A DNA stretch of 64,000 nucleotides from Pararhizobium sp. YC-54 (lineage in GTDB: Bacteria > Pseudomonadota > Alphaproteobacteria > Rhizobiales > Rhizobiaceae). The notes under the pieces are model-generated. The model worked only from the letters and a program-made list of their open reading frames with translations, was not told where the DNA came from and did no database searches. A program made the position numbers and the translations under genes. The stretch spans positions 62,001 to 126,000 of the forward strand of contig NZ_JAOYTH010000018.1 in assembly GCF_025847205.1 (NCBI RefSeq), given 5' to 3'. This document shows positions 27,241 through 43,480 of this stretch, one piece after another (position 1 is the first letter of the stretch; every line of letters begins with the position of its first letter).

Positions 27241-27596
27241 GCGAACTCCAGAGGTGATCTTTGCGTCGCCGACTGCGATAGAGGGCCCGATGGTGATGGT
27301 CAAAGCAAAATTCCTGATGTTTATCTTCAGCGAGGACCCGGATCACGATCCGCCGGCTGCACAAAAATCAGGCACTCAATAGATTTCCAACTCCCGGCGA
27401 GGGACCGGAATGCAACTGCTTGGCCACTCCGGCGCGAAGACATGATGAAAAGGGCGGCAGCTCCGGGACTCACACCTCAGGGTCAGCCCAAAAAAGCGGC
27501 GATCACCAGCCGAAATTTCTTTTGCCCTCCAATGAGCATGCTTCTTGCATTGCCCCTGTTGTTGTACTCAAATGGCAAAAAAAGGGGATCACACCG
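27241..27596. other. 356-bp intergenic region, divergent promoters
   Basis: Separates the EamA gene from the ATP-grasp operon. I see no gene, RNA or clear palindrome in it; it should hold promoters for both directions. The segment 27560-27590 is A/G-rich and includes the GGGGA ribosome site for the TTG at 27597. Confidence 0.4.
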
Positions 27597-29006
27597 TTGG
27601 CATTTGACGAAATGATGAATGCGGACAACAGCCCGCGCCAGCCGTACTCGACTTACAATGATTGGTACTCAGCCCAGGACAAAGCCCGCCTGATTGCAAA
27701 ATCGAAAGAGGCCGAAAACATCTTCCGCAAGACGGGTATTACCTTCGCGGTCTACGGACACGCGGACAGCTCCGAGAAGCTCATCCCCTTCGACCTCATC
27801 CCCCGTATCATTTCCGGCCGTGAATGGCGCAAGCTGGCCCAGGGCATCGAACAGCGGGTCATTGCGCTGAACGCCTTTCTCGACGACATCTATCACAAGC
27901 AGGAAATCATCAAGGCCGGCCGCGTGCCGCGCGAACTGATCGAGCGCAACGTCGCCTTCCTGCCGCAGATGATCGGCTTCCGGCCGCCGGGCGGCGTCTA
28001 TACCCATATCGTCGGCACCGACATCGTGCGCACCGGCGAAGACCAGTTCTACGTGCTGGAAGACAATGCCCGCACGCCCTCCGGCGTTTCCTACATGCTG
28101 GAAAACCGCGAGACGATGATGCAGATGTTCCCGGAACTCTTCCATCAGAACCGCGTCCGCCCGGTCGAGAACTATCCCTATCTCCTGCGCCACAGTCTCG
28201 CCTCGCTCGCCCCTCCCGGCTGCGAAGGCAAGCCGCGCGTCGCGGTGCTGACGCCCGGCATTTACAATTCGGCCTATTACGAGCACGCCTTCCTCGCCGA
28301 TATGATGGGTGTCGAGCTTGTCGAAGGCTCGGACCTGCGCGTCATCGACGGCAAGGTGAAGATGCGCACCACGCGTGGCTACGAGGCGATCGACGTGCTC
28401 TACCGCCGCGTCGACGACGACTATCTCGATCCGCTGACCTTCAAGCCGGAATCGGCACTCGGCATTCCCGGCATCATGGATGTCTACCGCGCCGGCAATA
28501 TCACCATCGCCAATGCGCCGGGCACCGGCATCTGCGACGACAAGGCGATCTACTCCTACATGCCGGAGATCGTCGAGTTCTATACCGGCCGCAAGGCCCT
28601 GCTCGAGAACGTACCGACCTGGCGCTGTTCAGAAGACGACAGCCTGAAATACGTGCTCGAAAACCTTGCCGACCTCGTCGTCAAGGAAGTGCATGGCTCC
28701 GGCGGTTACGGCATGCTGGTCGGGCCGACCGCATCCAAGAAGGAACGTGCTGCTTTTGCCGAAAAGCTGAGAGCGCGCCCTGCCAATTACATCGCACAAC
28801 CGACGCTTTCTCTGTCGACCGTGCCGATCCTCGTCAACAAGGGCATCGCTCCGCGCCATGTGGACCTTCGCCCTTATGTCCTCGTTTCCGACAAGGTGCA
28901 GATCATTCCAGGCGGGCTGACCCGCGTGGCTTTGAAGGCCGGTTCGCTGGTGGTGAATTCCAGCCAGGGCGGCGGCACCAAGGATACCTGGGTTCTGGAG
29001 GACTGA
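27597..29006 (+). CDS. Circularly permuted ATP-grasp protein
   Basis: 469 aa. The sequence (IPFDLIPRIISGREWRKLAQGIEQRVIALNAFL..., FYVLEDNARTPSGVSYMLENR, VKEVHGSGGYGML, RPANYIAQPTLSLSTVPIL) is the CP-ATP-grasp type 2 family, formerly DUF404/DUF407. Comparative genomics predicts these enzymes ligate amino groups to carboxylates, building or tagging a peptide together with alpha-E and transglutaminase-like partners. The TTG at 27597 has GGGGA upstream and is preferred; the ATGs at 27612/27615 lack a site. The stop overlaps the next start (TGATG). Confidence 0.88.
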   Translation: MAFDEMMNADNSPRQPYSTYNDWYSAQDKARLIAKSKEAENIFRKTGITFAVYGHADSSEKLIPFDLIPRIISGREWRKLAQGIEQRVIALNAFLDDIYHKQEIIKAGRVPRELIERNVAFLPQMIGFRPPGGVYTHIVGTDIVRTGEDQFYVLEDNARTPSGVSYMLENRETMMQMFPELFHQNRVRPVENYPYLLRHSLASLAPPGCEGKPRVAVLTPGIYNSAYYEHAFLADMMGVELVEGSDLRVIDGKVKMRTTRGYEAIDVLYRRVDDDYLDPLTFKPESALGIPGIMDVYRAGNITIANAPGTGICDDKAIYSYMPEIVEFYTGRKALLENVPTWRCSEDDSLKYVLENLADLVVKEVHGSGGYGMLVGPTASKKERAAFAEKLRARPANYIAQPTLSLSTVPILVNKGIAPRHVDLRPYVLVSDKVQIIPGGLTRVALKAGSLVVNSSQGGGTKDTWVLED

Positions 29007-29950
29007 TGCATATGCTTGGAAGAACTGCAAACGGCCTCTACTGGATGTTCCGCTATATCGAGCGGGCCGAAAACAGCGCCCGGCTGATCGATGCCGGCCT
29101 GCGCATGTCGCTCACCCGCTCGGAGGCAACGGAAGACGATTGGGACGGCGTGCTGCAAAGCTCGGGCGTCCGCGATATCTACGACGATCTCTACGAAAAA
29201 CTGACGAGCGCCGACGCCATCGACTTTCTGCTGCGCGACCGGGCCAATCCTTCGAGCGTGATGTCCTGCATCGATTCGGGCCGCAACAATGCCCGCATGG
29301 TGAGAACAGCGCTGACGCGGGAAACCTGGGAAGCCACCAACGAATGCTGGCTCGACCTCAAATCCACCCTTTCCCGGCGCATCAGGCCGGCCGACCTTCC
29401 CGAAGTCATCGACGGCATCAAGCGCATGACGGGCCTGATCCGCGGCGCGTTTCACGGGACGATGCTGCGCAACGAGATCTTCAACTTCTCACGCATCGGC
29501 ACCTTCATCGAGCGGGCCGACAACACTGCCCGCATTCTCGACGTGAAATACTACGTCCTGCTTCCGGCGGTATCGCAGGTCGGCTCCTCGATCGACAACG
29601 TCCAGTGGGAATCGATCCTGCGCTCGGTTTCGGCGCATCGCTCCTACGGCTGGGTCTACGAGGCGGAATACAAGCCATCCAACATCGCCGATTTCCTGAT
29701 CCTCAACGGCCGCATGCCCCGCTCGCTTGCCTATTGCTACGACAAGATCGTCAGCAATCTCGGCTATCTCGCCCGCGAATACGGCGAAGGCCATGCAGCA
29801 CACGCAACGGCGGAAGAAACGCTCTCCTCCCTGCGCAATCACTCGATCAAGGACGTGATGGACCAGGGGCTGCACGAGTACATCGAGAATTTCATCAGCC
29901 ACAACAACCGTCTGGGACAGGAAATCTCCGACGGCTACCGGTTCAACTGA
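29006..29950 (+). CDS. Alpha-E domain protein
   Basis: 314 aa, all helical. It begins LGRTANGLYWMFRYIERAEN, the signature of the alpha-E (DUF403) family, and repeats a related element at FNFSRIGTFIERADNTARIL. The family always accompanies CP-ATP-grasp and transglutaminase-like genes; no reaction has been shown. GGAGG precedes both ATG 29006 (4 bases, TGATG overlap) and ATG 29012 (10 bases); the latter would drop two residues. Confidence 0.9.
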   Translation: MHMLGRTANGLYWMFRYIERAENSARLIDAGLRMSLTRSEATEDDWDGVLQSSGVRDIYDDLYEKLTSADAIDFLLRDRANPSSVMSCIDSGRNNARMVRTALTRETWEATNECWLDLKSTLSRRIRPADLPEVIDGIKRMTGLIRGAFHGTMLRNEIFNFSRIGTFIERADNTARILDVKYYVLLPAVSQVGSSIDNVQWESILRSVSAHRSYGWVYEAEYKPSNIADFLILNGRMPRSLAYCYDKIVSNLGYLAREYGEGHAAHATAEETLSSLRNHSIKDVMDQGLHEYIENFISHNNRLGQEISDGYRFN

Positions 29951-29971
29951 GATTCGGATGGGAGAGAGTAC

Positions 29972-30790
29972 ATGCGTCTGAAGATCAGCCACACCACCGA
30001 ATATACCTATGACGAACCGGTGCAGTATTCGCTGCAGCGCCTGCGCCTGACGCCGCTGTCGCAGCCAGGGCAGACCGTCATCAGCTGGGAAACCGCCGTC
30101 GAGGGCGCCAAGATGGAGGTCGGCTATGACGACCATTTCGGCAACCGGGTAAACCTCGTCAGCGTCCACGGCGACCAGACGTCCATCCGCATCACGGCTT
30201 CAGGCGAAGTCGAGACGGAAGACAAGGCCGGTGTCTACGGCCCCCACCAGGCCTATGCGCCGCTCTGGCTCTATTTGCGCGAAACACCGCTGACGAAGAT
30301 GACCAAGCCCATCCGCAACCTCGCCAAGGCAATGAGCGGCGATACGGATCTTGCCAGGATGCATGCGCTGATGGGCAAGATCAATGAGATCGTCGAATAC
30401 CGGCAGGGCGAGACAGGAACCGAGACAACGGCCGAGCAGGCCCTCCTGCAAAAGAGCGGCGTCTGCCAGGATCACGCCCATATCATGATCGCCGCCGCGC
30501 GCACGCTCGGCCTGCCCGCGCGCTATGTTTCCGGATACCTGATGATGGAAGATCATCCGGAGCAGACGGCCAGCCACGCCTGGGCCGAAGTGCACCTCAA
30601 CGGTCTCGGCTGGGTCGGCTTCGATGCCGCCAACAAGATGTGCCCTGACGACCGCTATGTCCGTATCGCCTGCGGGCTGGACTATCGCGACGCAGCGCCG
30701 ATTTCCGGCCTGATCCACGGTTCAGCGAGCGAAGCACTGAAAGTCTCGGTGACTGTTGAGCAGCAGGAACAGAGCCAGAGCCAGTCCTGA
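29972..30790 (+). CDS. Transglutaminase-like cysteine protease/amidase domain protein
   Basis: 272 aa. N-terminal beta domain (LKISHTTEYTYDEPVQYSLQ) followed by the transglutaminase core with catalytic Cys165 (SGVCQDHAH), His202 (SHAWAEV) and Asp218 (GFDAANK). Third gene of the ATP-grasp/alpha-E/transglutaminase operon, 21 bp after alpha-E, with GGGAGAGAG upstream. It lacks a signal peptide, so it works in the cytoplasm. Predicted to hydrolyse or re-form the amide bonds made by the ATP-grasp partner. Confidence 0.9.
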   Translation: MRLKISHTTEYTYDEPVQYSLQRLRLTPLSQPGQTVISWETAVEGAKMEVGYDDHFGNRVNLVSVHGDQTSIRITASGEVETEDKAGVYGPHQAYAPLWLYLRETPLTKMTKPIRNLAKAMSGDTDLARMHALMGKINEIVEYRQGETGTETTAEQALLQKSGVCQDHAHIMIAAARTLGLPARYVSGYLMMEDHPEQTASHAWAEVHLNGLGWVGFDAANKMCPDDRYVRIACGLDYRDAAPISGLIHGSASEALKVSVTVEQQEQSQSQS

Positions 30791-30825
30791 CCGGCTCCGG
30801 CGTTTGGATCACCCGGCCCCTACTG

Positions 30826-30938
30826 CATAATTCCTTAAACCGGAATCGATTTAAGGAAAAATTATGCAGCAAATTTAAAGTGTTACAGCGACATTTGCGC
30901 GTCATGAATGATGCGCGGCGCTGTAGAGGCCGGGTGAA
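30826..30938. repeat. Composite palindromic rhizobial repeat
   Basis: First arm pair: CTGCATAATT...CCTTAAA with TTTAAGG..AATTATGCAG (about 30823-30872), with a 3-base bulge. Second: TTACAGCG ... GCGC-GTCAT / ATGAT-GCGC ... CGCTGTA (about 30887-30927). This two-hairpin unit, with the second part GC-rich, is of a kind common between rhizobial genes. It lies between two converging gene ends and may act as a terminator. Confidence 0.6.
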
Positions 30939-30944
30939 AGCGCA

Positions 30945-32396
30945 TCACGCCGCCATGCCGGCGAAAATGTCCTTCTTGACGATGGCGTGCACGCCCCAGT
31001 TCCCATCGACCACCTGGGTGATGCCGAAATCGACGCCGATGGACATCAGCGAGATCGCCTCGTCTTCCGTCAACCCCTTGGTCTTCATCAGGAAATGGCG
31101 CATCTTCTTGAAGGCATCGCGCAGCGCCAGATCAACCGACGACTTCGAGTAGATCTCGGTCTGCGCACCGGAGCCCAGTTCCTGCAGGTAGTTGGCGAAG
31201 CTGAAGCCGTGAACCAGCCAGTCGTCCTTGGTTTCCAGCATCGGATAGTTCAGCTCCTCCAGCGGCGTGCCGGCGAGGTCCGCCTTCTTGTGAACGATGA
31301 GCTGGAATGTGCCGGTCAGCGAGCATTCGATCGCCGTTCCGCACAGTTCGCTGTCGCCTTGCGAGGCATGGGGATCCCCGACCGAGAGCATGGCGCCAGC
31401 GACAGAGACGGGATAGTACATCGTCGCCCCCTTGCCGATGCGCCAGTTGTCGATATTGCCGCCGGTATAGCTGGGCGGAATCGTATCGACGAAATCCACC
31501 TCGGCGGGCGCAAGGCCAAGTGTGCCGAAGTGCGGCCGGATCGGCAGCCGCACACCCTTCAGCACGTCGTAATTGCGCTTGGTGGTGCTGTGATCGACGG
31601 GCACGCCGGGATAGTCGATCGTCTCGTGCATGACGCCGAACGGGTCTTTCTGCGGCACCCACTGGAAATTATAGGCCGCCTGCGCCCAGTTGCGGCCACC
31701 CGTTGCATCGATCTCATAGATCGTGATGACCTCGCGCTTCTTGCCGTCCAGAAGATGGTTGTAGTGGAAACCCCAATTGGCCGCGGCATTGGACCCGAAG
31801 GCCTTGCCCTTGAAGTCCGGATTGGCTGACGGGCGCGGCACGCAATCGATGATGCGCACTTCCAGAATATCGCCCGGCTCGGCGCCACGCACATAGACAG
31901 GACCGGTCATGATGTGCACGCCCATGCCCTCGCCGGAACCCTTCTTGTAGACGGCGGGGTCGGTCGGTCCGGCGCCGCGCCGGTCGACGCCCTTCTTGTC
32001 CTTGGTCCAGAGATAGACGCTTTCCGCCCCTTCGTCGCCCTTGACCATGCGCTCCAGATCGTCGGCCGCATGATGCGTCAGCGTCTCGATGGTGATGATG
32101 TCACCGCTATCTACTTCCACCTGCGGCTTCAGCGTCTTGCTGAAATAGCCCCAGTGCACCGTATCGGCGTTGGCGGGCAGATAGTGATAGGATTGCTTGG
32201 CGGGCTGCTTGGCGGCGCTGGCCTTGGCCAGCTCGGGCGTGACCAGCGTCATCGTTCCCGCGCCAAGGGCGGCCAGACCGCCGGCAGCCGCAAAACTGCT
32301 CTTCAGGAAGCCGCGCCGCTCGACGTTCATATCTTCCTTGAATGTCTTGTAGTGCACCGCAAAATGCGGGCAATTCACGTCGTCTCCATGGCACAT
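30945..32396 (-). CDS. Acetamidase/formamidase family protein, Tat-exported
   Basis: 483 aa. A twin-arginine signal (E-R27-R28-G-F-L-K, then AAAGGLAALGAGTM) directs it out of the cytoplasm. The FmdA/AmdA fold follows: YHYLPANADTVHWGYFS, the ETLTHHAADDLERM region, and the metal/active-site-like stretch GDPHASQGDSE. The family hydrolyses short amides or formamide to ammonia and acid. ATG 32396 has AGGA upstream, but ATG 32330, just before the Tat motif, also has AAGGA and would give 461 aa; the shorter form is the more usual signal length. Divergent from the AraC-acetamidase fusion. Confidence 0.85.
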   Translation of the reverse strand: MCHGDDVNCPHFAVHYKTFKEDMNVERRGFLKSSFAAAGGLAALGAGTMTLVTPELAKASAAKQPAKQSYHYLPANADTVHWGYFSKTLKPQVEVDSGDIITIETLTHHAADDLERMVKGDEGAESVYLWTKDKKGVDRRGAGPTDPAVYKKGSGEGMGVHIMTGPVYVRGAEPGDILEVRIIDCVPRPSANPDFKGKAFGSNAAANWGFHYNHLLDGKKREVITIYEIDATGGRNWAQAAYNFQWVPQKDPFGVMHETIDYPGVPVDHSTTKRNYDVLKGVRLPIRPHFGTLGLAPAEVDFVDTIPPSYTGGNIDNWRIGKGATMYYPVSVAGAMLSVGDPHASQGDSELCGTAIECSLTGTFQLIVHKKADLAGTPLEELNYPMLETKDDWLVHGFSFANYLQELGSGAQTEIYSKSSVDLALRDAFKKMRHFLMKTKGLTEDEAISLMSIGVDFGITQVVDGNWGVHAIVKKDIFAGMAA

Positions 32397-32728
32397 TTTT
32401 TTCGTTCCTTTCCCCTTAAAAGTGCTTCGACGGGGCAAAGTATTTGTGACGGATTGAGCGATGACAATGGCCCTCACCGGCCGGCGTTAGCGGCGTTTGG
32501 CACCGGGTACAGAGCGAAAAATTAAAATTAATCAAATAATTTCATATATTTAAACTAAAACCTAAAATTATCGCGCATGCCGGGATCAGCCCGCGCGGCA
32601 TCGCGAGGCAAGAGATTGTTCGTCTGGGAACAAGAAAAATTGCTGCAGTGCGGTTAAACTTGCCCCAGCGTGCTATCCTGAGGGCGCGCAACGGCAGCGC
32701 GCTTGCGGCACGCAAGGAAGGGATTTGC
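32397..32728. promoter_or_regulatory. Divergent promoter region between the two acetamidase genes
   Basis: 332 bp. The centre (about 32515-32575) is strikingly A/T-rich against a high-GC background, with runs such as AAAATTAAAATTAATCAAA and TTTAAACTAAAACC. It is the natural place for promoters and for the binding site of the AraC-type fusion protein. No single clear dyad was picked out by eye. Confidence 0.45.
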
Positions 32729-35062
32729 ATGGATCAGGCAGCCGAGCATATCGCGATCGATCAGTTTCCGGCCGAGGCCCGCCAGAATGCCTGGCTGGGT
32801 GCGCTGACGGCATTGTCGCTCGATTGCCGGATGCCGGAAAGCGGACCGGCGAGCGGTTCGATCACGCTGCGGCATTCGCAGAGCGGCGCCGTCCTGGCGC
32901 TTCTCCATTCGCGGCCCCAGCAGCTGCAGAGCATTGTGCAGGCAGGCGTCAACAGTCCGGTCTCCCTCATCCTCTGTCTATCCGGACGCGGGCGGCTGAT
33001 CTGCGGGCGCAAGTCCATCGAGCTGGCGGAAGGCGTTCTGTGCGCGCTCGACATGGCGGACCGCTGGACGATCGATTGGCGCAGCGATTTCGAGATCCTG
33101 ATCCTGCGGCTGCCGCGCACCGGCTTCGCATCGCGGCTTGGCCGCGCAAGGGTGACCTTTCCCGTCGCACTGGGCAAGACGGTCGCTGCCATCGCCGTGC
33201 GGCCGATCCTGCGGACCCTGGCGGGCCATATCGACCTGATCGACCAGGCCGACCTGAGCGTGGCGGAGACGGCAGTCACCGAACTTGCCGCAAGCGCCCT
33301 GCTGTCCGAACTGAAGGCGGACGAAGGCGGCGTGACCCAGGTGCAGGCCGCGCATTTCCGGCGGGTTTCGGCCGCCATCGAGCGCCAGCTTCAGGACACC
33401 GATCTCGGCATGACCGAAATCGCGGCGAAGGAAGGCATGTCCGTGCGTTACCTGCAGCGCCTGTTTGAAAAGCGCGGCGAGAGCTTTTCGGATTATGTCC
33501 GCAACCTGCGCCTCGAGCGGTGCCGCGCCGACCTGATCGATCCAAACCACAATGCCGAAAGCATTGCCGAAATCGGCAATCGCTGGGGCTTTCGCGATCA
33601 GGCTCATTTCTCCCGCGCCTTCAGCACCGCCTTCGGCATTTCGCCGCGCATCCTGCGCCGCAATCTGTCCGACACCGAGGAGGTTCGCCGGCAAAGAGGC
33701 AAGCCACCCGTGCAGGGCGGCCGCAGCGGCGTGACGCCCAGCCGCCCGAAACCCGTACAGTTTGCCGCCGGCGACACCGCCGAGGTGGAAATCCGGGACA
33801 AGACCCCGCGCCACCATTATCTGCCGGCCAACCGCTCGACGGTGCATTGGGGATATCTCAGCCGCCTTCTGGCGCCGGTGCTGAGGGTCGGCTCCGGTGA
33901 GCGCGTCACGATCGAGACCTTGACACAGCATGCCTATGACGACCACGAACGGATGATCAAGGGCGATCCCGGTGCCGAAAGCGTGTTCGAGTGGACATCG
34001 GAATACAAGGCTATCGACCGCCGTGGCGCCGGTCCCATCAACGCCTCGGTGTTCGGGCGCGGCGCTGGCGAAGGTTTCGGCGTGCACATCTGCACCGGAC
34101 CGATCCACGTGCGCGGCGCCGAGCCGGGCGATATACTCGAAGTGGAGATACTCAGTATCAGCCCCCGCCCTTGCGCCAATCCGGACTTTGCCGGCAAGGC
34201 CTTTGCCAGCAACGCTTCGGCCTGGTGGGGTTTCCAGTATCACGACCTGCTCGACCAGACCCGCCGCCGCGAAACGGTGACCATCTATGAAATCGACCTT
34301 CAGGATGCGGCGCATGCACAGGCGCTCTACAGCTTCGAGTGGACGCCGCAGACCGATCCTTTCGGCGTCGTGCACGCCACGATGGATTACCCCGGCATTC
34401 CGGTGGACCGCGCCAGCATCCAGCCCAGGAACCGGCTTCTCGAAGGCGTGCACGTCCCTGCCCGGCCGCATTTCGGCTTCATCGCCGTCGCGCCGCGGGA
34501 AGCGGAGATCATCGATTCCATCCCGCCCGGCTATTTCGGCGGCAATATCGACAACTGGCGCGCAGGTCCCGGATCAAAGATTTACCTGCCCGTTTCCGTT
34601 CCCGGCGCCCTTCTGTCGATCGGTGACGGACATTTCGCGCAGGGCGACGGCGAGATCAACGGCACCGGGCTTGAATGCTCGCTCACCGGCGACATCCGCG
34701 TCAGGCTGCACAAGCAGCATGAGCAGCTGCCGCCGCATCTGCGCGGGTTCGGCGCGCCGCTGATCGAGACGGAGGATTGCTGGGTCATCCAGAGCTTCAG
34801 CTATCCGCAATATCTGCGTGATCTCGGCCGCAACGCGCAGGCCGAGGTCTACGGCCGCTCCACGGTGGACCTTGCCCTGCGCAATGCCTTCCAGCAGGCG
34901 CGCCGGTTCCTGATGGATACCTATGCGCTGAGCGAGGACGAAGCCATGAGCCTGATGTCGCTGGCGGTCGATTTCGGCATCACACAGGTGGCGGACGGCA
35001 ATCTCGGCGTCCATGCAACCATCCGCAAATCGCTTTTTGCCGGGCGGGCAGAAAAGAAATAG
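32729..35062 (+). CDS. Fusion protein: AraC-family regulator + acetamidase/formamidase
   Basis: 777 aa in one uninterrupted frame from the ATG at 32729 (AAGGAAGGGA upstream). Residues 1-200: AraC-binding-like sensor domain. Residues about 211-312: two helix-turn-helix units of AraC type (EIAAKEGMSVRYLQRLFEKRG; SIAEIGNRWGFRDQAHFSRAFS). Residues 313-360: polar linker. Residues about 361-777: a complete FmdA/AmdA enzyme domain starting HHYLPANRSTVHWGYLS and carrying GDGHFAQGDGEI near residues 631-644, so it looks catalytically intact. It has no signal peptide. The enzyme half is clearly paralogous to the divergent Tat-exported gene. Possible role: a regulator that senses or consumes its own amide inducer. 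Confidence 0.88.
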   Translation: MDQAAEHIAIDQFPAEARQNAWLGALTALSLDCRMPESGPASGSITLRHSQSGAVLALLHSRPQQLQSIVQAGVNSPVSLILCLSGRGRLICGRKSIELAEGVLCALDMADRWTIDWRSDFEILILRLPRTGFASRLGRARVTFPVALGKTVAAIAVRPILRTLAGHIDLIDQADLSVAETAVTELAASALLSELKADEGGVTQVQAAHFRRVSAAIERQLQDTDLGMTEIAAKEGMSVRYLQRLFEKRGESFSDYVRNLRLERCRADLIDPNHNAESIAEIGNRWGFRDQAHFSRAFSTAFGISPRILRRNLSDTEEVRRQRGKPPVQGGRSGVTPSRPKPVQFAAGDTAEVEIRDKTPRHHYLPANRSTVHWGYLSRLLAPVLRVGSGERVTIETLTQHAYDDHERMIKGDPGAESVFEWTSEYKAIDRRGAGPINASVFGRGAGEGFGVHICTGPIHVRGAEPGDILEVEILSISPRPCANPDFAGKAFASNASAWWGFQYHDLLDQTRRRETVTIYEIDLQDAAHAQALYSFEWTPQTDPFGVVHATMDYPGIPVDRASIQPRNRLLEGVHVPARPHFGFIAVAPREAEIIDSIPPGYFGGNIDNWRAGPGSKIYLPVSVPGALLSIGDGHFAQGDGEINGTGLECSLTGDIRVRLHKQHEQLPPHLRGFGAPLIETEDCWVIQSFSYPQYLRDLGRNAQAEVYGRSTVDLALRNAFQQARRFLMDTYALSEDEAMSLMSLAVDFGITQVADGNLGVHATIRKSLFAGRAEKK

Positions 35063-35075
35063 GTCTCCGGCAGGT

Positions 35076-35118
35076 TGAGCTGCCCCCGAAAGGGGTTGCC
35101 AACTTTCGGGGCAGCTCA
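35076..35118. terminator. Hairpin after the fusion gene
   Basis: TGAGCTGCCCCCGAAAG and CTTTCGGGGCAGCTCA pair with one bulged C around a 10-base loop. It lies 14 bp past the fusion stop. There is no T tract, so factor-independent termination is uncertain. Confidence 0.5.
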
Positions 35119-35161
35119 GTGAACCTGGCGGGATTTCCGTTTCGCGACGCTGCCAGCGCGT

Positions 35162-35259
35162 GTCGCGATCTTTCCGATTCGCTTCTCGCGCTTTAGGTCT
35201 TTGATTTTACGCATGTCGTTATCGCACAACCGCTGCACACTTTTGCGCGACATGCTTTA
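35162..35259 (-). repeat. Rhizobial intergenic repeat, copy 2 (inverted)
   Basis: Reads on the minus strand TAAAGCATGTCGCGCAAAAG ... GAAAGATCGCGAC and matches 2643-2748 with only a few differences over about 95 bp. It touches the 3' end of the repeat-protein gene at 35257. Confidence 0.75.
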
Positions 35260-35958
35260 GCGCGAAGCGCTTGCCTGCAGCAGGCGGCAGAGACTGACCA
35301 GGCTGGCATCATAACCTGACGAGCCCGTGATATCCCGGCATCGGCGAATGAGACGGCGCTGTTCGCCGGGTGACAGTTTGTTGAACGCGGTTAACGATGG
35401 CGTTGCAGGCTTCACGCCGGGATTACCCGTGGCTGGATTGGTGCCATCACCGCCACCGGGATTTGGCGTCACCGATGTACCGCCACCATTGCCAGCCTTG
35501 CTTCCGACGCCAACGCCGACACCTATGCCCTGACCGCCGCCTACGCCCGCCCCCACAGCGGCATTAATGCCACGCGATCCGCCAAGGCCAAGGCCGGCAT
35601 CGGCTGTGATGCCCCTGCTCCCTCCGGCGCTCGCATTGACGTTTGCTGCCAAGCCCCGGCTACCACCGGCATTGGCATCGACATCGGCATTGATGCCGGA
35701 CCTCCCGCCCACCGAGGCTGTGGCCGCGGCGGAAACGCCTTTCGTTCCACCCACCGAAGCATTTACGCCAGCATTGACACCCTTGTTGCCACCCAGCGAC
35801 GCTCCAACATCGGTGTTGATGCCATTTTTGCCGCCGATCGATACACTCGCACCGAGGCCGAGATCATTGCCGTGCTTGTCGCCTGCTTCCGCAAGCGGCA
35901 CAAACGCCACGGTTGCGGCGAAAAAACCAAAAGACAGGCTTATGATGTTGATTTTCAT
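35257..35958 (-). CDS. Secreted protein with seven 14-residue Gly/Ala/Asn repeats
   Basis: 233 aa. Sec signal peptide at residues 1-25 (ending LAEA-GD). From residue 52 to 149 there are seven consecutive 14-residue units of pattern x-A-S-x-G-G-x-x-G-I-N-A-x-V, with a looser unit at 36-51. A Gly/Pro/Thr linker follows, then a C-terminal domain (LSPGEQRRLIRRCRDI...SLVSLCRLL) with two cysteines. The regular spacing suggests a beta-solenoid or extended surface-exposed fibre. No known family was recognised. Sigma-type signals were not identified. Confidence 0.8.
   Translation of the reverse strand: MKINIISLSFGFFAATVAFVPLAEAGDKHGNDLGLGASVSIGGKNGINTDVGASLGGNKGVNAGVNASVGGTKGVSAAATASVGGRSGINADVDANAGGSRGLAANVNASAGGSRGITADAGLGLGGSRGINAAVGAGVGGGQGIGVGVGVGSKAGNGGGTSVTPNPGGGDGTNPATGNPGVKPATPSLTAFNKLSPGEQRRLIRRCRDITGSSGYDASLVSLCRLLQASASR
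35512..35853 (-). repeat. 42-bp tandem coding repeats
   Basis: DNA encoding residues 36-149 of the secreted repeat protein. Units of 42 bp are diverged at the base level but keep codons for GG-x-x-G and the alternating Ala/Val positions, showing selection on the protein pattern. Confidence 0.7.
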
Positions 35959-36111
35959 GACGTTCTCCTTCCTGAATGCCGGAGCAGGATTGGTCCGGCG
36001 ACGGAGAATGAACGCTTAAAACGGGTATTCGTTCCCGATGCAACTTGGATTCCAAGCCACGCCGAAACAGGTAGGCTGGCGCCGCTGACAGAGACGCGAT
36101 CTACAAAAATT

Positions 36112-36146: not shown

Positions 36147-37886
36147 TTAGTGGCTATCCTTGCCGACCGCGTTTCCACGACATCCCTTGAGGAAGTCGAG
36201 GTCGGCGCCGGTATCGGCCCCTTCGACATGCTGCTGGTGCAGGAAAGCATAGCCCGATGTCGGCAGGTCGTGGTTCGGCTGCCACTCGGCAAGCCGCCGC
36301 GCCAGTTCCGCTTCGGAAATGTCGAGATGCAGGCGGCGGTTCGGCACGTCGAGCTCGATCATATCGCCGTTCTTCACCACGGCGAGCGGGCCGCCGACCG
36401 CGGCTTCCGGCGACGTGTGCAGCACGACCGTGCCGTAAGCCGTGCCGGACATGCGGGCGTCGGAGATGCGCACCATGTCGGTGATGCCCTTCTTCAGCAC
36501 TTTCGGCGGAAGACCCATGTTGCCGACTTCGGCCATGCCGGGATAACCCTTCGGTCCACAGTTCTTCATGACCATGATGCAGGTCTCGTCGATGTCGAGA
36601 TTGTCATCGTTGATCTTGGCCTTGTAGTCGTCGATGTCCTCGAACACGACCGCACGGCCCCGATGCGTCAAGAGATGCGGCGAAGCAGCCGACGGCTTCA
36701 GCACCGCGCCCTTCGGTGCCAGATTGCCGCGCACCACGACGATTCCGCCCGACTGCGTCAGCGCCTTGTCGGCAGGCAGAATGACGTCCTCGTTCCAGTT
36801 GACGACGTCCTTGACCTCGTCCCAAACGGTTTCGCCGGAAACCGTCAGCGCGTCCTTGTGCAGAAGGCCGGCCTCGCCGAGGCGCTTCAAGACCACCGGC
36901 AGACCGCCGGCATAGAAGAACTCTTCCATCAGGTATTTGCCCGACGGCATCAGGTTGACGATGGTCGGCACGTCGCGGCCACAACGGTCCCAATCATCCA
37001 GTGTCAGGTCGATGCCAACGCGGCCGGCCATGGCCAGCAGGTGGATGACGGCATTGGTCGATCCGCCGATCGCCGCATTGGTGCGGATGGCGTTCTCGAA
37101 GGCCTTCTTTGTCATGATGTCGGAAGGCTTCAGATCGTCCTTGACCATCTGCACGATCCGCCGTCCGGTGAGCTGCGCCATGACCTTGCGGCGAGAATCG
37201 ACGCCCGGGATCGCGGCATTGCCGGAAAGCGCCATGCCCAGCGCCTCGGCCATGGAGGCCATGGTGGAGGCGGTGCCCATGGTGTTGCAGGTGCCCGACG
37301 AACGGCTCATCGAGGCTTCCGCCTCCAGGAACTCGTCCTGTGTCATCTCGCCGGCCTTCACCATCTCGGAGAACTTCCACAGATGCGTGCCCGAGCCGAC
37401 GCGTTCACCGCGGAAATAGCCGTTCAGCATCGGCCCGCCGGTGACGACGATCGAGGGCAGGTCGACGGAGGCGGCTGCCATGATCAGCGATGGCGTGGTC
37501 TTGTCGCAACCGACCAAAAGCACGCAGCCATCCATCGGCTGGCCGCGGATCGTCTCTTCGATAGCCAGCGCCGCCAGGTTGCGATACATCATCGCGGTCG
37601 GGCGGAAGGTGTTTTCCGATGCCGAGAATACCGGCACCTCCATCGGGAAGCCGCCAGCCTCCCATACGCCGGCCTTCACCTTTTCGGCGAGCTCGCGCAG
37701 ATGGCCGTTGCACGGCGTCATATCCGACCAGGTGTTGAGGATGCCGATCACCGGACGTCCGTCGAACAGGTCGTGCGGGTATCCCTGGTTCTTCATCCAG
37801 CCGCGATGGTAGATCACGTCGCGGCTCGTGCCGCCATACCATTCCTGCGAGCGCAGCCTGCGCGGCCATTCCGCTTTCTTCGTCAT
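36147..37886 (-). CDS. L-arabonate dehydratase (IlvD/Edd family, 2Fe-2S)
   Basis: 579 aa, the same length as the structurally studied Rhizobium leguminosarum L-arabinonate dehydratase, which it matches closely as recalled. The three iron-sulfur ligands fall at Cys59, Cys127 and Cys200. Other family stretches include VIGILNTWSDMTPCN, SRSSGTCNTMGTA and CGPKGYPGMAEVGNMG. It removes water from L-arabonate (and probably D-fuconate or D-galactonate) to give 2-keto-3-deoxy-L-arabonate. Last gene of the run, 55 bp after the aldehyde dehydrogenase. Confidence 0.95.
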   Translation of the reverse strand: MTKKAEWPRRLRSQEWYGGTSRDVIYHRGWMKNQGYPHDLFDGRPVIGILNTWSDMTPCNGHLRELAEKVKAGVWEAGGFPMEVPVFSASENTFRPTAMMYRNLAALAIEETIRGQPMDGCVLLVGCDKTTPSLIMAAASVDLPSIVVTGGPMLNGYFRGERVGSGTHLWKFSEMVKAGEMTQDEFLEAEASMSRSSGTCNTMGTASTMASMAEALGMALSGNAAIPGVDSRRKVMAQLTGRRIVQMVKDDLKPSDIMTKKAFENAIRTNAAIGGSTNAVIHLLAMAGRVGIDLTLDDWDRCGRDVPTIVNLMPSGKYLMEEFFYAGGLPVVLKRLGEAGLLHKDALTVSGETVWDEVKDVVNWNEDVILPADKALTQSGGIVVVRGNLAPKGAVLKPSAASPHLLTHRGRAVVFEDIDDYKAKINDDNLDIDETCIMVMKNCGPKGYPGMAEVGNMGLPPKVLKKGITDMVRISDARMSGTAYGTVVLHTSPEAAVGGPLAVVKNGDMIELDVPNRRLHLDISEAELARRLAEWQPNHDLPTSGYAFLHQQHVEGADTGADLDFLKGCRGNAVGKDSH

Positions 37887-37941
37887 AGTGCTTGTCCTTT
37901 AAGAGCGATCGGACCGGGCCGGGCCCAGTCCGGAAACGTCG

Positions 37942-39375
37942 TTACGCCAGCGTATAAGCGGTCTTCACCACGGTGAAGAACTCGGCCGCATACTTGCCCT
38001 GCTCGCGCGAGCCGAAGGAGGAAGCCTTGCGACCGCCGAACGGCACGTGGAAATCGACACCGGCCGTCGGCAGGTTGACCATCACCATGCCGGCTTCCGA
38101 ATTGCGCTTGAAATGCGTCGCATGCTTCAGGCTCGTCGTCGCGATACCCGCCGACAGGCCGAACGGCGTGTCGTTGGCAACCGAGAGCGCTTCCTCGTAA
38201 TCCTTGACCCGGATGACGGAGGCGACGGGGCCGAAGATTTCTTCGCGGCTGATGCGCATCTGGTTGGTTGCCTCGGTAAACAGCGTCGGCTGCAGGTAGA
38301 AGCCCGGATTTTCGCGCGTAATCGTCTCGCCGCCGAAAGCGAGCTTGGCGCCTTCCTGGCGGCCGATGGCAATATAATCGGTGTCGGTGGCAAGCTGGCG
38401 CTCATCGACGACCGGACCGATATGGGTTCCTGCCTTCAGCGCATCGTCGACCACCAGTGTCTTCAGCTTTTCGGTCAAGGCTGCGACGAACTTGTCGTGG
38501 ATGCCTTCGGTGACGATCAGGCGCGACGACGCCGTGCAGCGCTGGCCGGTCGAGAAGAAGCCGGAATTGGCCGCGGCTTCGACAGCGACAGTGAGATCGG
38601 CATCATCCAGAACCACCATCGGGTTCTTGCCGCCCATTTCCAGCTGGAACTTGCGGTTATGCTCGATGGAGGACGCGGCGACCCGCTTGCCGGTGCCCGT
38701 CGAGCCGGTAAAGGTGATGCCGGCCAGATCCGGGCTATCGAGCATGGCCTGGCCAACGACCGAGCCCTTGCCCATGACGAGGTTCAAGACGCCCTTCGGC
38801 AGGCCTGCACGGTTGAGAATATCGGCAATCGCCCAGGAGCAGCCAGGTACCAGCTCAGCCGGCTTGAAGACGACGGTGTTGCCGTAGCAGAGCGCCGGGG
38901 CGATCTTCCAGGCCGGAATGGCGATCGGGAAATTCCACGGCGTGATGATGCCGATGACGCCGATCGGCTCGCGGGTGATCTCGACGCCGATGTTCGGGCG
39001 TGCCGACGGCAGCACCTCGCCTGCCAGGCGCAGAGCCTCGCCGGCGAAGAAATCGAAAATCTGTGCCGCACGGATGGTCTCGCCGATCGCTTCCGGCAGC
39101 GTCTTGCCTTCTTCGCGGGCGAGCAGGTTGCCGAGCTCTTCCTTGCGGGCGAGGATCTCGTCGGCGGTTTTCTTCAGGATCGCATGACGCTCGAGAATGC
39201 CCGAGCGCGACCAGGCCGGAAACGCGGCCTTTGCGGCGGCAATCGCGGTCTTGGCATCGTCGGCGCTGGCGGTGGCATAAAGACCGACGATCTCGTTTGT
39301 GTTCGACGGATTGATGTTTTCAACGCCGTTGCTGCCGACCCATTCGCCGGCGATCAGGTTGTGATGGAGTGTCAT
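37942..39375 (-). CDS. Aldehyde dehydrogenase, probable alpha-ketoglutarate semialdehyde dehydrogenase
   Basis: 477 aa ALDH superfamily protein with general base Glu246 (LEMGGKNP) and catalytic Cys280 (STGQRCTAS), plus the NAD-binding FTGSTGTGK. Sitting between arabonate dehydratase and the GguC gene, it most likely oxidises 2-oxoglutarate semialdehyde to 2-oxoglutarate, the last step of non-phosphorylative L-arabinose breakdown. Confidence 0.9.
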   Translation of the reverse strand: MTLHHNLIAGEWVGSNGVENINPSNTNEIVGLYATASADDAKTAIAAAKAAFPAWSRSGILERHAILKKTADEILARKEELGNLLAREEGKTLPEAIGETIRAAQIFDFFAGEALRLAGEVLPSARPNIGVEITREPIGVIGIITPWNFPIAIPAWKIAPALCYGNTVVFKPAELVPGCSWAIADILNRAGLPKGVLNLVMGKGSVVGQAMLDSPDLAGITFTGSTGTGKRVAASSIEHNRKFQLEMGGKNPMVVLDDADLTVAVEAAANSGFFSTGQRCTASSRLIVTEGIHDKFVAALTEKLKTLVVDDALKAGTHIGPVVDERQLATDTDYIAIGRQEGAKLAFGGETITRENPGFYLQPTLFTEATNQMRISREEIFGPVASVIRVKDYEEALSVANDTPFGLSAGIATTSLKHATHFKRNSEAGMVMVNLPTAGVDFHVPFGGRKASSFGSREQGKYAAEFFTVVKTAYTLA

Positions 39376-39444
39376 GGGCTCAAAGCCTCCTTGGTTTCAG
39401 CGAACACCCTGAGATCGGCACCCGCAGTCAAATGCATGAACGGA

Positions 39445-40437
39445 TCAGAGCTGACCGATCGTGATCTCGTCTTCGCTGGCGATCGCCAGCGCGTTGCGCA
39501 GCGGCAGACCGAATTCGGACGCCTCGATTTCGAAGATATCGCCCGCTTCGGTCTTGATGCCATCGCCGAAGGACAGCGTCGCCGTCCCGAACATATGGAC
39601 ATGAACATCGCCCGGCGCACGGAAAATTCCATACTTGAAGTGGTGATATTCGAGATTGGCGAACGTATGGGACATGTTGGCTTCGCCCGACAGGAACGGC
39701 TTTTCCCAGAGAACCGCGCCGTCGCGGATGATCCGCGAACTGCCGCGAATATCGGCGGGCGGTTCGCCGACCCGGATTTCCGGGCCGAAGCTCGCGGGCC
39801 GCAGCTTGGAATGGGCCAGATAGAGATAGTTGACCCGTTCGGTCACGTGGTCGGAAAATTCGTTGGCGACGGCAAAGCCGATGCGGAACGGTGCGCCCTT
39901 GTCGGAGATCACGTAGATGCCGGCCATTTCCGGCTCTTCGCCGCCATCCTCAGCAAAGGACGGCGAGACGAGTTCCCCGCCTGGAGCGACTGTCTGGGAG
40001 CCGTTGCCCTTGTAGAACCATTCCGGCTGCACGCCCTTCTCGCCCGGCTTCGGCTTGCCGCCTTCCAGACCCATCTTGAACATCTTCATCGTGTCGGTGG
40101 CGCCTTCCTCGACCTTCGACACCGCAGCATGCATCGCATCGCGCGTCGATGCGGAGCCGAGATGGGTGAGACCGGTACCCGTCAAATGCAGATGCGCGTC
40201 ATCCGGATGGGTGATCGGCGGCAGGAAAAGCCCCTTGGCATAGACGTCCTGAAGATCGACTTCGTCGCCAAGACCATGGGCCGCGACGACGGCCTTCAGG
40301 CTCTTGCCCGAATTGGCCGCTTCCATCGCCAGCGCGTAGACGCTGGCCGCACCCTTCACGGCGCGGGCACCCTCGCCCAATTCACGAACGGCCACCGTGA
40401 TCGAGCCGTCATTGTTCTTCACCTGAGAAATCAGCAC
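39445..40437 (-). CDS. gguC: AraD1/GguC-family protein (fumarylacetoacetase-like fold)
   Basis: 330 aa from a GTG at 40437 with AAGGACAAGG upstream. The C-terminal two thirds have an FAH-like fold (YVISDKGAPFRIGFAVANEFSDHVTERVNYLYLAHSKLRPASFGPEI, DIFEIEASEFGLPL). The family includes 2-keto-3-deoxy-L-arabonate dehydratase AraD1 and Agrobacterium GguC, encoded next to gguAB. It would turn the dehydratase product into 2-oxoglutarate semialdehyde. This links the transporter to catabolism. Confidence 0.9.
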   Translation of the reverse strand: MLISQVKNNDGSITVAVRELGEGARAVKGAASVYALAMEAANSGKSLKAVVAAHGLGDEVDLQDVYAKGLFLPPITHPDDAHLHLTGTGLTHLGSASTRDAMHAAVSKVEEGATDTMKMFKMGLEGGKPKPGEKGVQPEWFYKGNGSQTVAPGGELVSPSFAEDGGEEPEMAGIYVISDKGAPFRIGFAVANEFSDHVTERVNYLYLAHSKLRPASFGPEIRVGEPPADIRGSSRIIRDGAVLWEKPFLSGEANMSHTFANLEYHHFKYGIFRAPGDVHVHMFGTATLSFGDGIKTEAGDIFEIEASEFGLPLRNALAIASEDEITIGQL

Positions 40438-40664
40438 AGCCTTGTCCTTTTCTAGATCCGGGCGGTTTGATCGGCGTCCAGCGGCTGGCTTTCAGCAACA
40501 ACAACCCGTTGGGAGACATGACATATGCTCCCGTTCATGGCGGCAAGCCGCCGTTTTCGTTATGATGCGCGGGCCGGAGCATCTCGCCAAACGTCAGCGC
40601 GACAACCGCTCCGGCACCGTTTGCGCAGTCAGAAAACCTGATGCGCGGGACTGACCGGAACCGG

Positions 40665-41873
40665 TCAGCCCTTGTTCTTGTTGTAGACGTCGAAGAACAC
40701 GGCAGCGAGGAGCACGAGGCCCTTGACCAGTTGCTGGTAGTCGATGCCGAGGCCCATGATCGACATGCCGTTGTTCATGACGCCCATGATCAGAGCGCCG
40801 ATGACAGCGCCGGTGATCTTGCCGACGCCGCCCGACGCCGAAGCGCCGCCGATGAAGCAGGCCGCGATGACGTCGAGTTCAAAGCCGACACCGGCCTTCG
40901 GGGTCGCCGAATTCAGGCGTGCCGCGATGATCATGCCGGCAAGAGCCGCAAGCACGCCCATGTTGACGAAGGTGTAGAAGGTCAGCCGTTCGGTGTTGAT
41001 GCCGGAGAGCTTTGCCGCCTTCTCATTGCCGCCCATCGCGTAGATGCGGCGGCCGATCGTCGAGCGCGTGGTGACGAACGTGTAGAGCGCGATGAGCAGG
41101 GCCATGACGACCAGGACGTTCGGGAAGCCCTTGTAGGTCGAGAGCTGGAAGCCGAGGAAAATCGCTACGGCGGCAATGATCGCCATCTGGCCGGCAAAGA
41201 ACGCAAATGGTTCGTTTTCCGTGCCGTGCCTTTCATTGGTCCGGCGATCGCGCAGACCGTAGTAAATGGCCAGAGCAACCAGCGCCACGACGACGACCAG
41301 CGAGAAGAAGTTGGTGATCGTGCCCGGCAGTGGATTGAGGAAATACAGGAAGTCAGGGACGAAGCCGGTCGACAGCGACTGGAAATCCTTCGGGAACGGA
41401 CCGATCGGCCGATTCTGCAGGATGAGGTAGGTCAGACCGCGAAAGACGAGCATGCCGGCCAGCGTCACGATGAAGGCCGGGATTTTCTGGTAGGCGACCC
41501 AGTACCCTTGCGCAGCCCCGACGAGACCGCCCAAAATCAGGCAAAGCGGCACGACGATGGAGTAATGGATGCCCCATTTCACCAGCATGATCGCCGACAG
41601 GCCGCCGGTGAAGGCAACGATCGAGCCGACGGACAGATCGATATGGCCGGCAACGATGATCAACAGCATGCCCAGCGCCATGATGACGATGAACGAATTC
41701 TGCAGGATGAGGTTGGTCAGGTTGACAGGGCGGAACAGAACGCCATCGGTCAAGTACTGGAAGAAAAGCATGATGACCACGAGCGCGACGAGCAGGCCGT
41801 ATTCGCGGATATTGTTCTTGAGATATTCCCCGATGGAGGGCGTGGTTTTCTGAGCGCTGGTTTCGGCGACCAT
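40665..41873 (-). CDS. gguB: Sugar ABC transporter permease GguB
   Basis: 402 aa with about ten membrane helices. [30 protein letters not shown] and GGASASGGVGKITGAVIGALIMGVMNNGMS are the RbsC/XylH/GguB permease signatures. It forms the membrane channel for sugars delivered by ChvE. Its ATG shares one base with the gguA TAA (TAATG). Confidence 0.94.
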   Translation of the reverse strand: MVAETSAQKTTPSIGEYLKNNIREYGLLVALVVIMLFFQYLTDGVLFRPVNLTNLILQNSFIVIMALGMLLIIVAGHIDLSVGSIVAFTGGLSAIMLVKWGIHYSIVVPLCLILGGLVGAAQGYWVAYQKIPAFIVTLAGMLVFRGLTYLILQNRPIGPFPKDFQSLSTGFVPDFLYFLNPLPGTITNFFSLVVVVALVALAIYYGLRDRRTNERHGTENEPFAFFAGQMAIIAAVAIFLGFQLSTYKGFPNVLVVMALLIALYTFVTTRSTIGRRIYAMGGNEKAAKLSGINTERLTFYTFVNMGVLAALAGMIIAARLNSATPKAGVGFELDVIAACFIGGASASGGVGKITGAVIGALIMGVMNNGMSIMGLGIDYQQLVKGLVLLAAVFFDVYNKNKG

Positions 41874-43408
41874 TAGTGTTTCTCCCCGGAGCGCATGATG
41901 GCGCGCATAATGGATTCCTGGCTTGCTTCCTGCTTCGAAAGCTCGGCGACGATGCGGCCTTCGTTCATCACGTAGATCCGGTCGCAGGTTCCGAGAAGTT
42001 CGGGCATTTCCGATGAGATCATCAGGATACCCTTACCTTCTGCGGCAAGCTGATTGATGATGGTATAGATTTCATACTTCGCCCCGACATCGATGCCGCG
42101 GGTCGGCTCGTCGAGGATCAGGACTTCCGGCGTGGTGAACAACCACTTGGACAGGACGACCTTCTGCTGGTTGCCACCCGACAGATTGACGGCTTCCTGA
42201 TAGATCGAATGGGACCGGATACGCAGCTTCGACCGGTAGTCGGTCGCGACCTTGCGCTCCTTGTGGTCATCGATCACGCCGTTGCTTGCAACCGCATTCA
42301 GATTGGCAAGCGTCGTGTTGTGCATGATGTTGTTGTTCAAGACCAGGCCGAGCTGCTTGCGGTCTTCGGTGACATAGGCAAGGCCGGCATCGATGGCGCG
42401 CGGGATGGTGCTGACATCAACGAGCTTGCCATGCATGTGAACTTCGCCGGTGATCTTGTGACCCCAGGACTTGCCGAAGATGCTCATCACCGTTTCCGTG
42501 CGGCCGGCACCCATAAGGCCGGCGATGCCGACGACTTCGCCGGCGCGCACGTTGAAATTGACATCGTGCAGGAACTGGCGGTCGCGGTGCTGCTGGTGGA
42601 AGACGTTCCAGTTCTTCACTTCCAGCAGGATCTCGCCGACCTTCGGCTCGCGCGGCGGGTAGCGGTCTTCCATATCGCGGCCGACCATGCCCTTGATGAT
42701 CCGGTCTTCGCTGATGTCCTCGTTGTGACAGTTCAGCGTTTCCACCGTGCCGCCATCGCGCAGGATGGTGATCTTGTCGGCGACCTTCTTGATCTCATTC
42801 AGCTTGTGCGAAATGATGATCGAGGTCATGCCCTGCTTGCGGAATTCCATCAGGAGCTTCAGAAGCGCGTCGGAATCGGTCTCGTTGAGCGAAGCCGTCG
42901 GTTCGTCGAGGATCAGCAGGCGGACCTTCTTGGACAGCGCCTTGGCGATCTCGACAAGCTGCTGCTTGCCGACGCCGATATCGGTGATACGGGCCGATGG
43001 CGCCTCTTTGAGGCCAACCTTTTCAAGCAGGCCCTGCGTGCGCTGAAAAGTCTGCTTCCAGTCGATGACGCCGTTGGTGGCGATCTCGTTGCCGAGAAAG
43101 ATGTTTTCGGCAATCGACAGCAGCGGCACCAGCGCCAGCTCCTGGTGAATGATGATGATGCCGAGATGCTCGCTATCCGAAATCGTCGAGAAATGGCGAA
43201 CTTCGCGATCGTAATGGATTTCGCCGTCATAGGTTCCAGCGGGATAGACACCGCTCAAAACCTTCATCAGCGTTGATTTGCCGGCCCCGTTTTCGCCGAC
43301 CAGCGCGTGAATTTCACCCTCGTGAACCTTCAGGTTAACGTTGTCCAAGGCCTTTACGCCCGGAAACGTCTTGGTGATGCCCCGCATTTCGAGAATGATG
43401 TTGTCCAT
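41873..43408 (-). CDS. gguA: Sugar ABC transporter ATPase GguA (two ABC domains)
   Basis: 511 aa with two ATPase modules, as in RbsA/MglA/AraG. First Walker [10 protein letters not shown] at 38-46; the second half has [15 protein letters not shown] and [18 protein letters not shown]. The ATG at 43408 begins [22 protein letters not shown], the usual start. The weak ribosome site and the terminator hairpin upstream suggest lower output than chvE. Confidence 0.94.
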
Positions 43409-43480
43409 GTTCAGGTAATCCTGCGGCAGTCCGTGAATGATGAGGCCAGACACAATGACAATACAAGTCTCTCATCAAGA

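Follow-up and report, generated by a model that had tools for sequence, protein, structure and literature searches.

The 64,000-nucleotide stretch of Pararhizobium sp. YC-54 analysed here (hereafter the window; contig NZ_JAOYTH010000018.1, positions 62,001 to 126,000) encodes a protein of 777 residues that joins an AraC-type transcription regulator to an acetamidase/formamidase (FmdA/AmdA) domain. We read this AraC-FmdA fusion, with a probability of roughly 55%, as a one-component, autoregulatory AraC regulator whose amidase-fold half reads the inducing amide and in which hydrolysis has probably been weakened. The reading builds on a set of computational observations: the fusion itself, the single clade of the fused enzyme halves, the linkage to partner genes, a conserved promoter element, an intact enzyme core and a fixed change from histidine to glutamine. 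The features concerned are the following, in window coordinates.

32729..35062, + strand: AraC-FmdA fusion regulator, 777 residues, stop codon included
32738..33322, + strand: N-terminal AraC-type cupin-like sensor domain, residues ~4-198
33338..33673, + strand: AraC double helix-turn-helix, residues ~204-315
33671..33802, + strand: linker, residues 315-358, with low predicted local distance difference test (pLDDT) values and poor conservation
33803..35059, + strand: FmdA/AmdA domain, residues ~359-777
33926..33928, + strand: codon of Gln400, where free-standing enzymes have His
34622..34654, + strand: GDGHFAQGDGE, residues 632-642, including Asp633, His635, Asp640 and Glu642
32607..32636, + strand, reading toward the fusion gene: conserved operator-like element GGCAAGAGATTGTTCGTCTGGGAACAAGAA
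30945..32396, − strand: free-standing FmdA/AmdA paralogue, 483 residues, with a signal of the twin-arginine translocation (Tat) type
32301..32321, − strand: ERRGFLK twin-arginine motif of the paralogue, from the sequence
32439..32467, − strand: weak sigma-70-like promoter match for the paralogue, from a consensus scan

Reality, spread and probable single origin of the fusion

The initial annotation, made from the DNA letters alone, had described one unbroken frame holding an AraC regulator and a complete FmdA/AmdA enzyme, and the open frame, the Pfam domains and the full-length relatives all bear this out. A Pfam scan of the fusion (E up to 0.001) returned only AraC_binding_2, HTH_18, HTH_AraC and FmdA_AmdA, with neither a methyltransferase nor a DJ-1/PfpI domain beside the helix-turn-helix. 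The protein has the two parts that define the AraC/XylS family, a DNA-binding domain with two helix-turn-helix motifs and a cupin-like N-terminal effector/dimer domain, while its other half scores 98.4 bits with the FmdA_AmdA profile (PF03069; gathering score 27) and agrees with the fold of the solved members of that family. The fusion remains below the curated cut-offs of both the FeaR equivalog (NCBIfam NF007243; 126.8 vs 199 bits) and the formamidase FmdA equivalog (NCBIfam NF045496; 64.7 vs 500 bits, with the paralogue scoring 69). An internal start yielding a separate enzyme was considered and rejected: among possible start codons, the window has only GTG and CTG from residue 300 to 372, and a methionine in the 45 residues preceding the enzyme half is found in just 114 of 350 fusions and is not conserved.

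A protein search with the fusion gave 2743 matches; the 120 listed are 54-98% identical to it, and almost every one spans the whole protein and has the same domain set. A second query, taken from a second group of fusions, added 120 further relatives. Among the named loci (the best 80 of 569), the record titles indicate alpha-, beta- and gammaproteobacteria, the classes being those to which we take the named organisms to belong. These 80 loci and the listed relatives rule out a chance read-through as well as the single-genome assembly artefact that the initial annotation had itself raised against its proposal. In whole-genome samples (own genome counted, E up to 1e-60), the family contributed 297 genomes, of which 9 have the fusion (truncated at a contig end in one of them); the order contributed 397 with 20 carriers, and the phylum 398 with 8. 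No match was found in the four other genomes of the same genus shown in the family sample. The distribution is therefore widespread yet patchy.

The phylogeny of the enzyme domain was reconstructed from 91 domains retained after an 80% redundancy filter, namely 65 fused halves, 17 free enzymes and 9 short FmdA relatives used as the outgroup. The fused halves form a single clade (65/65, support 1.0), the pattern expected from one fusion event, and the branching order of the free enzymes is weakly supported. A separate arrangement was noticed on plasmid pRlX5 of Rhizobium johnstonii (L097, 7295-9704), where the fusion match begins at residue 207 and a distinct "hypothetical protein" is annotated just upstream; a natural split and a frameshift are both candidate readings.

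Partner genes of the fusion

The divergent gene of the window was described by the initial annotation as a paralogue of the enzyme half carrying a twin-arginine signal, a description that stands: it is a paralogue at 58% identity, has 3b9t as its PDB relative among the matches listed (E 3.3e-218), and its ERRGFLK motif is followed by a hydrophobic stretch (ERRGFLKSSFAAAGGLAALGAG), from which Tat export is predicted. Among 120 paralogue relatives, 117 have a broadly defined RR-type motif within their 45 N-terminal residues. Ahead of the twin-arginine motif, the Tat-type paralogues share a conserved MCxGDDxxCP (window 32367-32396, − strand; relatives P0123-P0242), and the resulting Met-Cys...Cys start, present by pattern in 105 of the 120, looks unusual for a Tat leader.

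Across relatives, 109 fusion stretches collapse to 99 unique loci, a set biased towards relatives of the window since only the best 80 were kept. A close paralogue lies within 1 kb in 64 of them (37 divergent, 22 upstream on the same strand and 5 convergent), so that the partnership, whose conservation the initial annotation had proposed to check, extends well beyond the window. A shorter FmdA-family gene is adjacent in 12/99, bringing the loci with any FmdA-family neighbour to 76/99. In place of the amidase, 15/99 loci (including L054, L056, L057, L091, L103 and L111) have a divergent operon of a tripartite ATP-independent periplasmic (TRAP) transporter, DctP-DctQ-DctM, with a gamma-glutamyltransferase (GGT); in two of these genomes, which were checked, other FmdA-family matches are distant only (38 and 42%). 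The paralogue is further off in 4/99 loci and no partner is seen in another 4/99, although whole-genome searching showed that each of these last four genomes has, at another place, either a free paralogue or a short FmdA relative.

An amino-acid ATP-binding cassette (ABC) system with SBP_bac_3 is found in 30/99 fusion loci and a RidA-type gene in 21/99. In the ABC-operon loci L061-L065, L071 and L072, the free enzyme is mostly 413-417 residues long with the enzyme domain beginning at the very start; an exported partner, as in the window, is thus only one of several arrangements. The periplasmic amide hydrolysis suggested by the initial annotation fits the window and is not general, given these non-exported starts and the 15/99 TRAP/GGT loci. 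Near fusions with His-His (see below) or related ones, we also observed TauD-type and Rieske oxygenases and isochorismatase-type hydrolases (L153, L166 and L170, by Pfam; a similar cluster in L175 is recognised from sequence likeness alone), which may indicate a more extended pathway for breaking down a nitrogen compound.

A conserved promoter element

The intergenic region between the two genes contains an operator-like element with the consensus GnCAAGnnnTTGTkCGynnnnGnCAAr, in which CAAG is repeated at 22 bp with TTGTkCG between; in the window it lies 93 to 122 bases ahead of the fusion start. It was discovered by counting spaced 4-mers and then lining up the sites, which gave one shared element. 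The counts are strong in the TRAP/GGT promoters (15/15) and weak alone in the paralogue promoters, where the strongest pairs reach 12-17/37 against a best of 9-12 in shuffles (TTGTGCGC being present in 12/37); the element became clear only when the TRAP/GGT group was added and the sites were lined up.

With near-identical sites removed, a leave-one-out test scored the window site at 26.8, compared to at most 14.3 in 1000 shuffles, and 33 of 36 divergent-paralogue loci outscored all 60 of their own shuffles. Using a joint matrix with a threshold of 17 or more near the target gene, sites were recovered in 46 of 51 divergent promoters, comprising 15/15 TRAP/GGT loci and 31/36 divergent-paralogue loci, the latter count being to some extent circular, as the same loci went into the matrix, so that the leave-one-out test is the fairer one. 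None of the 17 loci with a paralogue and without a fusion has a site (Fisher p 8e-10 against the 31/36), other arrangements have one much more rarely (12/48), and the background amounts to 7 other sites in 1.45 Mb, with about 1 per set in shuffles. A matrix from the paralogue loci alone places 13/15 TRAP/GGT promoters above the 99% shuffle level, and one from the TRAP/GGT loci alone finds 0/17 paralogue-only loci.

The sites have a preferred direction. In the divergent promoters, 46 are oriented toward the fusion and 2 toward the paralogue, and several loci, mainly from Bradyrhizobium and Xanthobacteraceae-like organisms, have a weaker additional copy facing the paralogue. The 14 other near-target sites (7 before SBP genes, 6 before same-strand paralogues and 1 before a short FmdA gene) all read toward the gene they precede. 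Of the 7 sites outside these positions, three stand just before a gene of outer-membrane type: L148 has a porin-like gene by Pfam, L162 one judged porin-like from its sequence, and L153 a TonB receptor gene. In its own genome, the window site is the only exact match to the element pattern; there is a single match with one mismatch, no more than expected from the reversed control. The self-contained circuit proposed by the initial annotation is well supported locally, with a conserved partner, an element in the shared promoter and a sole exact genomic match. A sigma-70-like consensus scan of 30700-35400 gave 3 matches for 1.1 expected, and the match at 32439..32467 is no evidence of function.

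State of the fused enzyme half

Residues were compared between 350 fused halves and 214 free enzymes (317 and 197 distinct ones, respectively, among those with the full core). All ten core positions (His401, Asp404, Asp468, Asn606, Asp608, Asp633, His635, Asp640, Glu642 and Glu649) are kept in 349/350 fused and 213/214 free sequences, and the core residues of the fusion are those common to the free enzymes and the short FmdA relatives. The initial annotation had stressed that the enzyme domain keeps a GD-x-H-x-x-QGD-x-E stretch and had proposed a check of the metal ligands of the fused half; in this stretch, Asp633, His635, Asp640 and Glu642 are retained in 350/350. Nothing decisive on the mechanism or catalytic residues of the FmdA/AmdA family was found in the literature searched, so that no catalytic base or metal ligand is named here; according to a 2017 account, the mechanism of 2WKN remained elusive (PMC5353710).

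One position, 400, sets the fused halves apart from the free enzymes: it is Gln in 345/350 fused halves and His in 5 (4 distinct), while in the free enzymes it is His in 213/214 and Gln in 1/214. The idea that only partnerless fusions keep His-His was dropped: three of the four partnerless ones do, but their genomes hold a free paralogue or a short FmdA relative elsewhere, and L060/L131 has His-His next to a paralogue. Within the fusion, conservation is highest in the enzyme half, with 79/413 invariant columns and a mean pairwise identity of 0.64, and, among the folded domains, lowest in the sensor (identity 0.27). AraC_binding_2 is missing from the precomputed Pfam list of 15/120 relatives of the first query and 48/120 of the second-group query, whereas HTH_18 and FmdA are present in all relatives of both lists.

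Proposed mechanism and alternative explanations

Three features of the element, namely its presence, its preferred direction and its absence from loci without the fusion, lead us to infer AraC-type control of the fusion's own transcript and of its neighbours; that this control would be activation rather than repression is an assumption taken from the family. The regulator would bind its putative operator between the two divergent genes (window 32607-32636), switching on its own gene together with the divergent Tat-type amidase, and in relatives it would control the linked ABC-amidase or TRAP/gamma-glutamyltransferase operon. Sensing is placed in the enzyme half because this half is constrained, keeps its core, has a residue change of its own and persists where the operon has no amidase of this family. 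It would act as the ligand reader, binding the amide (or the product) of the partner enzyme, perhaps turning it over slowly, and signalling to the AraC half; the enzyme part thus probably lets the regulator recognise the amide under its control. The replacement of His by Gln beside the core probably weakens or slows hydrolysis, which would separate the signal from substrate turnover. As for the identity of the substrate, the genes linked to the fusion suggest amides or gamma-glutamyl compounds, presumably entering via amino-acid-type or TRAP transporters.

Several observations weigh against this interpretation, besides the circularity mentioned above. Four distinct fused sequences keep His-His, and an intact core is equally expected of a fully active enzyme. 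The missing AraC_binding_2 matches may be threshold effects (29.9 vs 27 in L064), and in AraC regulators the sensor domain often evolves more quickly than the helix-turn-helix, so that low conservation is no proof of an idle sensor. Regarding the element, the joint matrix finds it in only 6/30 ABC-type, 6/11 other-paralogue, 0/3 short-FmdA and 0/4 partnerless loci, and an independent count in the ABC-type loci (a 22-bp spaced ACAA/CAAG repeat in 11-12/30, with up to 9 in shuffles) is little above background. The TRAP/GGT-only matrix passes 16/37 divergent-paralogue promoters and gives the window site 7.6, below its threshold of 12.1, and the TRAP/GGT loci are not independent, since nine of the 15 are from Ancylobacter.

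The initial annotation had allowed the enzyme half either to sense or to destroy the inducer. The main rival takes the second course: a self-limiting trigger enzyme, in which the cupin-like AraC domain would sense the amide and a fully active fused half would destroy it in the cytosol, leading to shut-off once the amide has been consumed. We consider it unlikely, though to be taken seriously. It would leave unexplained why Gln400 is so nearly confined to the fused halves and why the supposed sensor has 0/196 invariant columns; moreover, the ABC operons already hold a second enzyme without an exported start, so that destruction of the inducer would need no fusion.

A fusion for co-expression without cross-talk, in which the AraC half regulates, the enzyme half is an extra amidase and the join equalises their amounts, appears improbable. 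It would suit the long, poorly conserved and low-confidence linker and the match of each half to a stand-alone family. Nevertheless, the fused halves are one clade with their own fixed residue change, and over the same 37 loci they diverge faster than the free paralogues (653/666 pairs; mean identity 0.675 vs 0.793); the fusion is kept next to a free paralogue in 64/99 loci, and no AraC gene above 70 bits to the AraC half of the window was found in the 17 paralogue-only loci, which means that no split version was seen there. That the enzyme half mainly positions several AraC heads on DNA, as an oligomerisation scaffold without a ligand role, is very improbable: its size and its conservation, the highest in the protein, would suit this, but scaffolding alone would not lead one to expect a core kept in 349/350 sequences.

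Beyond the ligand-reading regulator favoured here, a broader scenario is possible, at somewhat less than even odds: a hydrolase fold captured once by an AraC regulator and kept as a sensor in three proteobacterial classes, with the change from His to Gln making it a substrate reader, and re-used on unrelated operons by moving one operator. The operons concerned would be those of the Tat amidase, the amino-acid ABC system with amidase, the TRAP transporter with gamma-glutamyltransferase and perhaps porins.

Surroundings of the locus

Upstream in the window (27420-30790, + strand), consecutive genes encode circularly permuted ATP-grasp, Alpha-E and transglutaminase-like proteins. Downstream (35257-35958, − strand) lies a gene for a glycine-rich protein of 233 residues with repeated GG-containing units and a leader-like start, for which there was no Pfam match; no DNA tandem repeats were found in 35200-36000. 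Further on (36147-43453, − strand) are an IlvD/Edd dehydratase, an aldehyde dehydrogenase and a 330-residue protein without a Pfam match, beyond which open reading frames resemble, as judged by eye, ABC sugar-transporter genes.

Comparison with known systems

The initial annotation did not recognise such a fusion as described. We found no description of AraC joined to acetamidase/formamidase in the open-access literature (most subscription journals lie outside that search), although the Joint Genome Institute (JGI) already names the architecture as "acetamidase/formamidase/AraC-like DNA-binding protein". Regulators with an enzyme fold are already known, enzyme-derived sensors being known for a few folds, and the same literature gave no description of the AraC-FmdA pairing, the residue switch or the promoter element. 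Here, a free-standing enzyme and its fused, residue-switched relative stand side by side with a conserved promoter element, so that a single residue swap and a single reporter would suffice to test directly how an enzyme turns into a sensor. The system might also be of use as a regulator responsive to amides, with a site defined to 30 bp, and as grounds for correcting database names such as "acetamidase/formamidase family protein", which conceal a likely transcription factor.

Compared to AraC/XylS regulators with AraC_binding_2 (FeaR-like; NCBIfam PRK09685), the fusion has the same sensor and double helix-turn-helix, a divergent or linked target and a repeated element as its putative operator; unlike them, it has a complete FmdA/AmdA domain and misses the FeaR equivalog cut-off. 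With the FmdA/AmdA amidases (PF03069, e.g., PDB 3b9t) it shares the fold and the core residues, whereas it is joined to a regulator, has Gln in place of the His of its close free relatives and misses the formamidase equivalog cut-off.

The nearest functional parallel is the fmdCABDEF cluster of Methylophilus methylotrophus, which, according to a review, combines a formamidase with a porin and ABC uptake genes, is induced by formamide and urea, and has a separate putative positive regulator that is not fused (PMC10781810). Several fusion loci similarly carry the element before ABC genes or before a porin-like gene (L148 and L162), the difference being that the putative regulator is separate there and fused here.

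An enzyme fold with a part in sensing, or an influence on it, is joined to a transcription regulator also in MocR/GabR, with an aminotransferase-like domain as the sensor, in AraC regulators with a DJ-1/GATase1-like domain, and in Ada, in which an AraC-type helix-turn-helix accompanies a methyltransferase. Their folds differ from the amidase found here, which usually has a free paralogue as its neighbour, and here a complete cupin-like sensor is present as well. Trigger enzymes such as PutA, BirA and NadR likewise unite an enzyme and gene control in one polypeptide; the AraC-FmdA fusion, whose fused half is a candidate catalyst, would resemble them in this respect.
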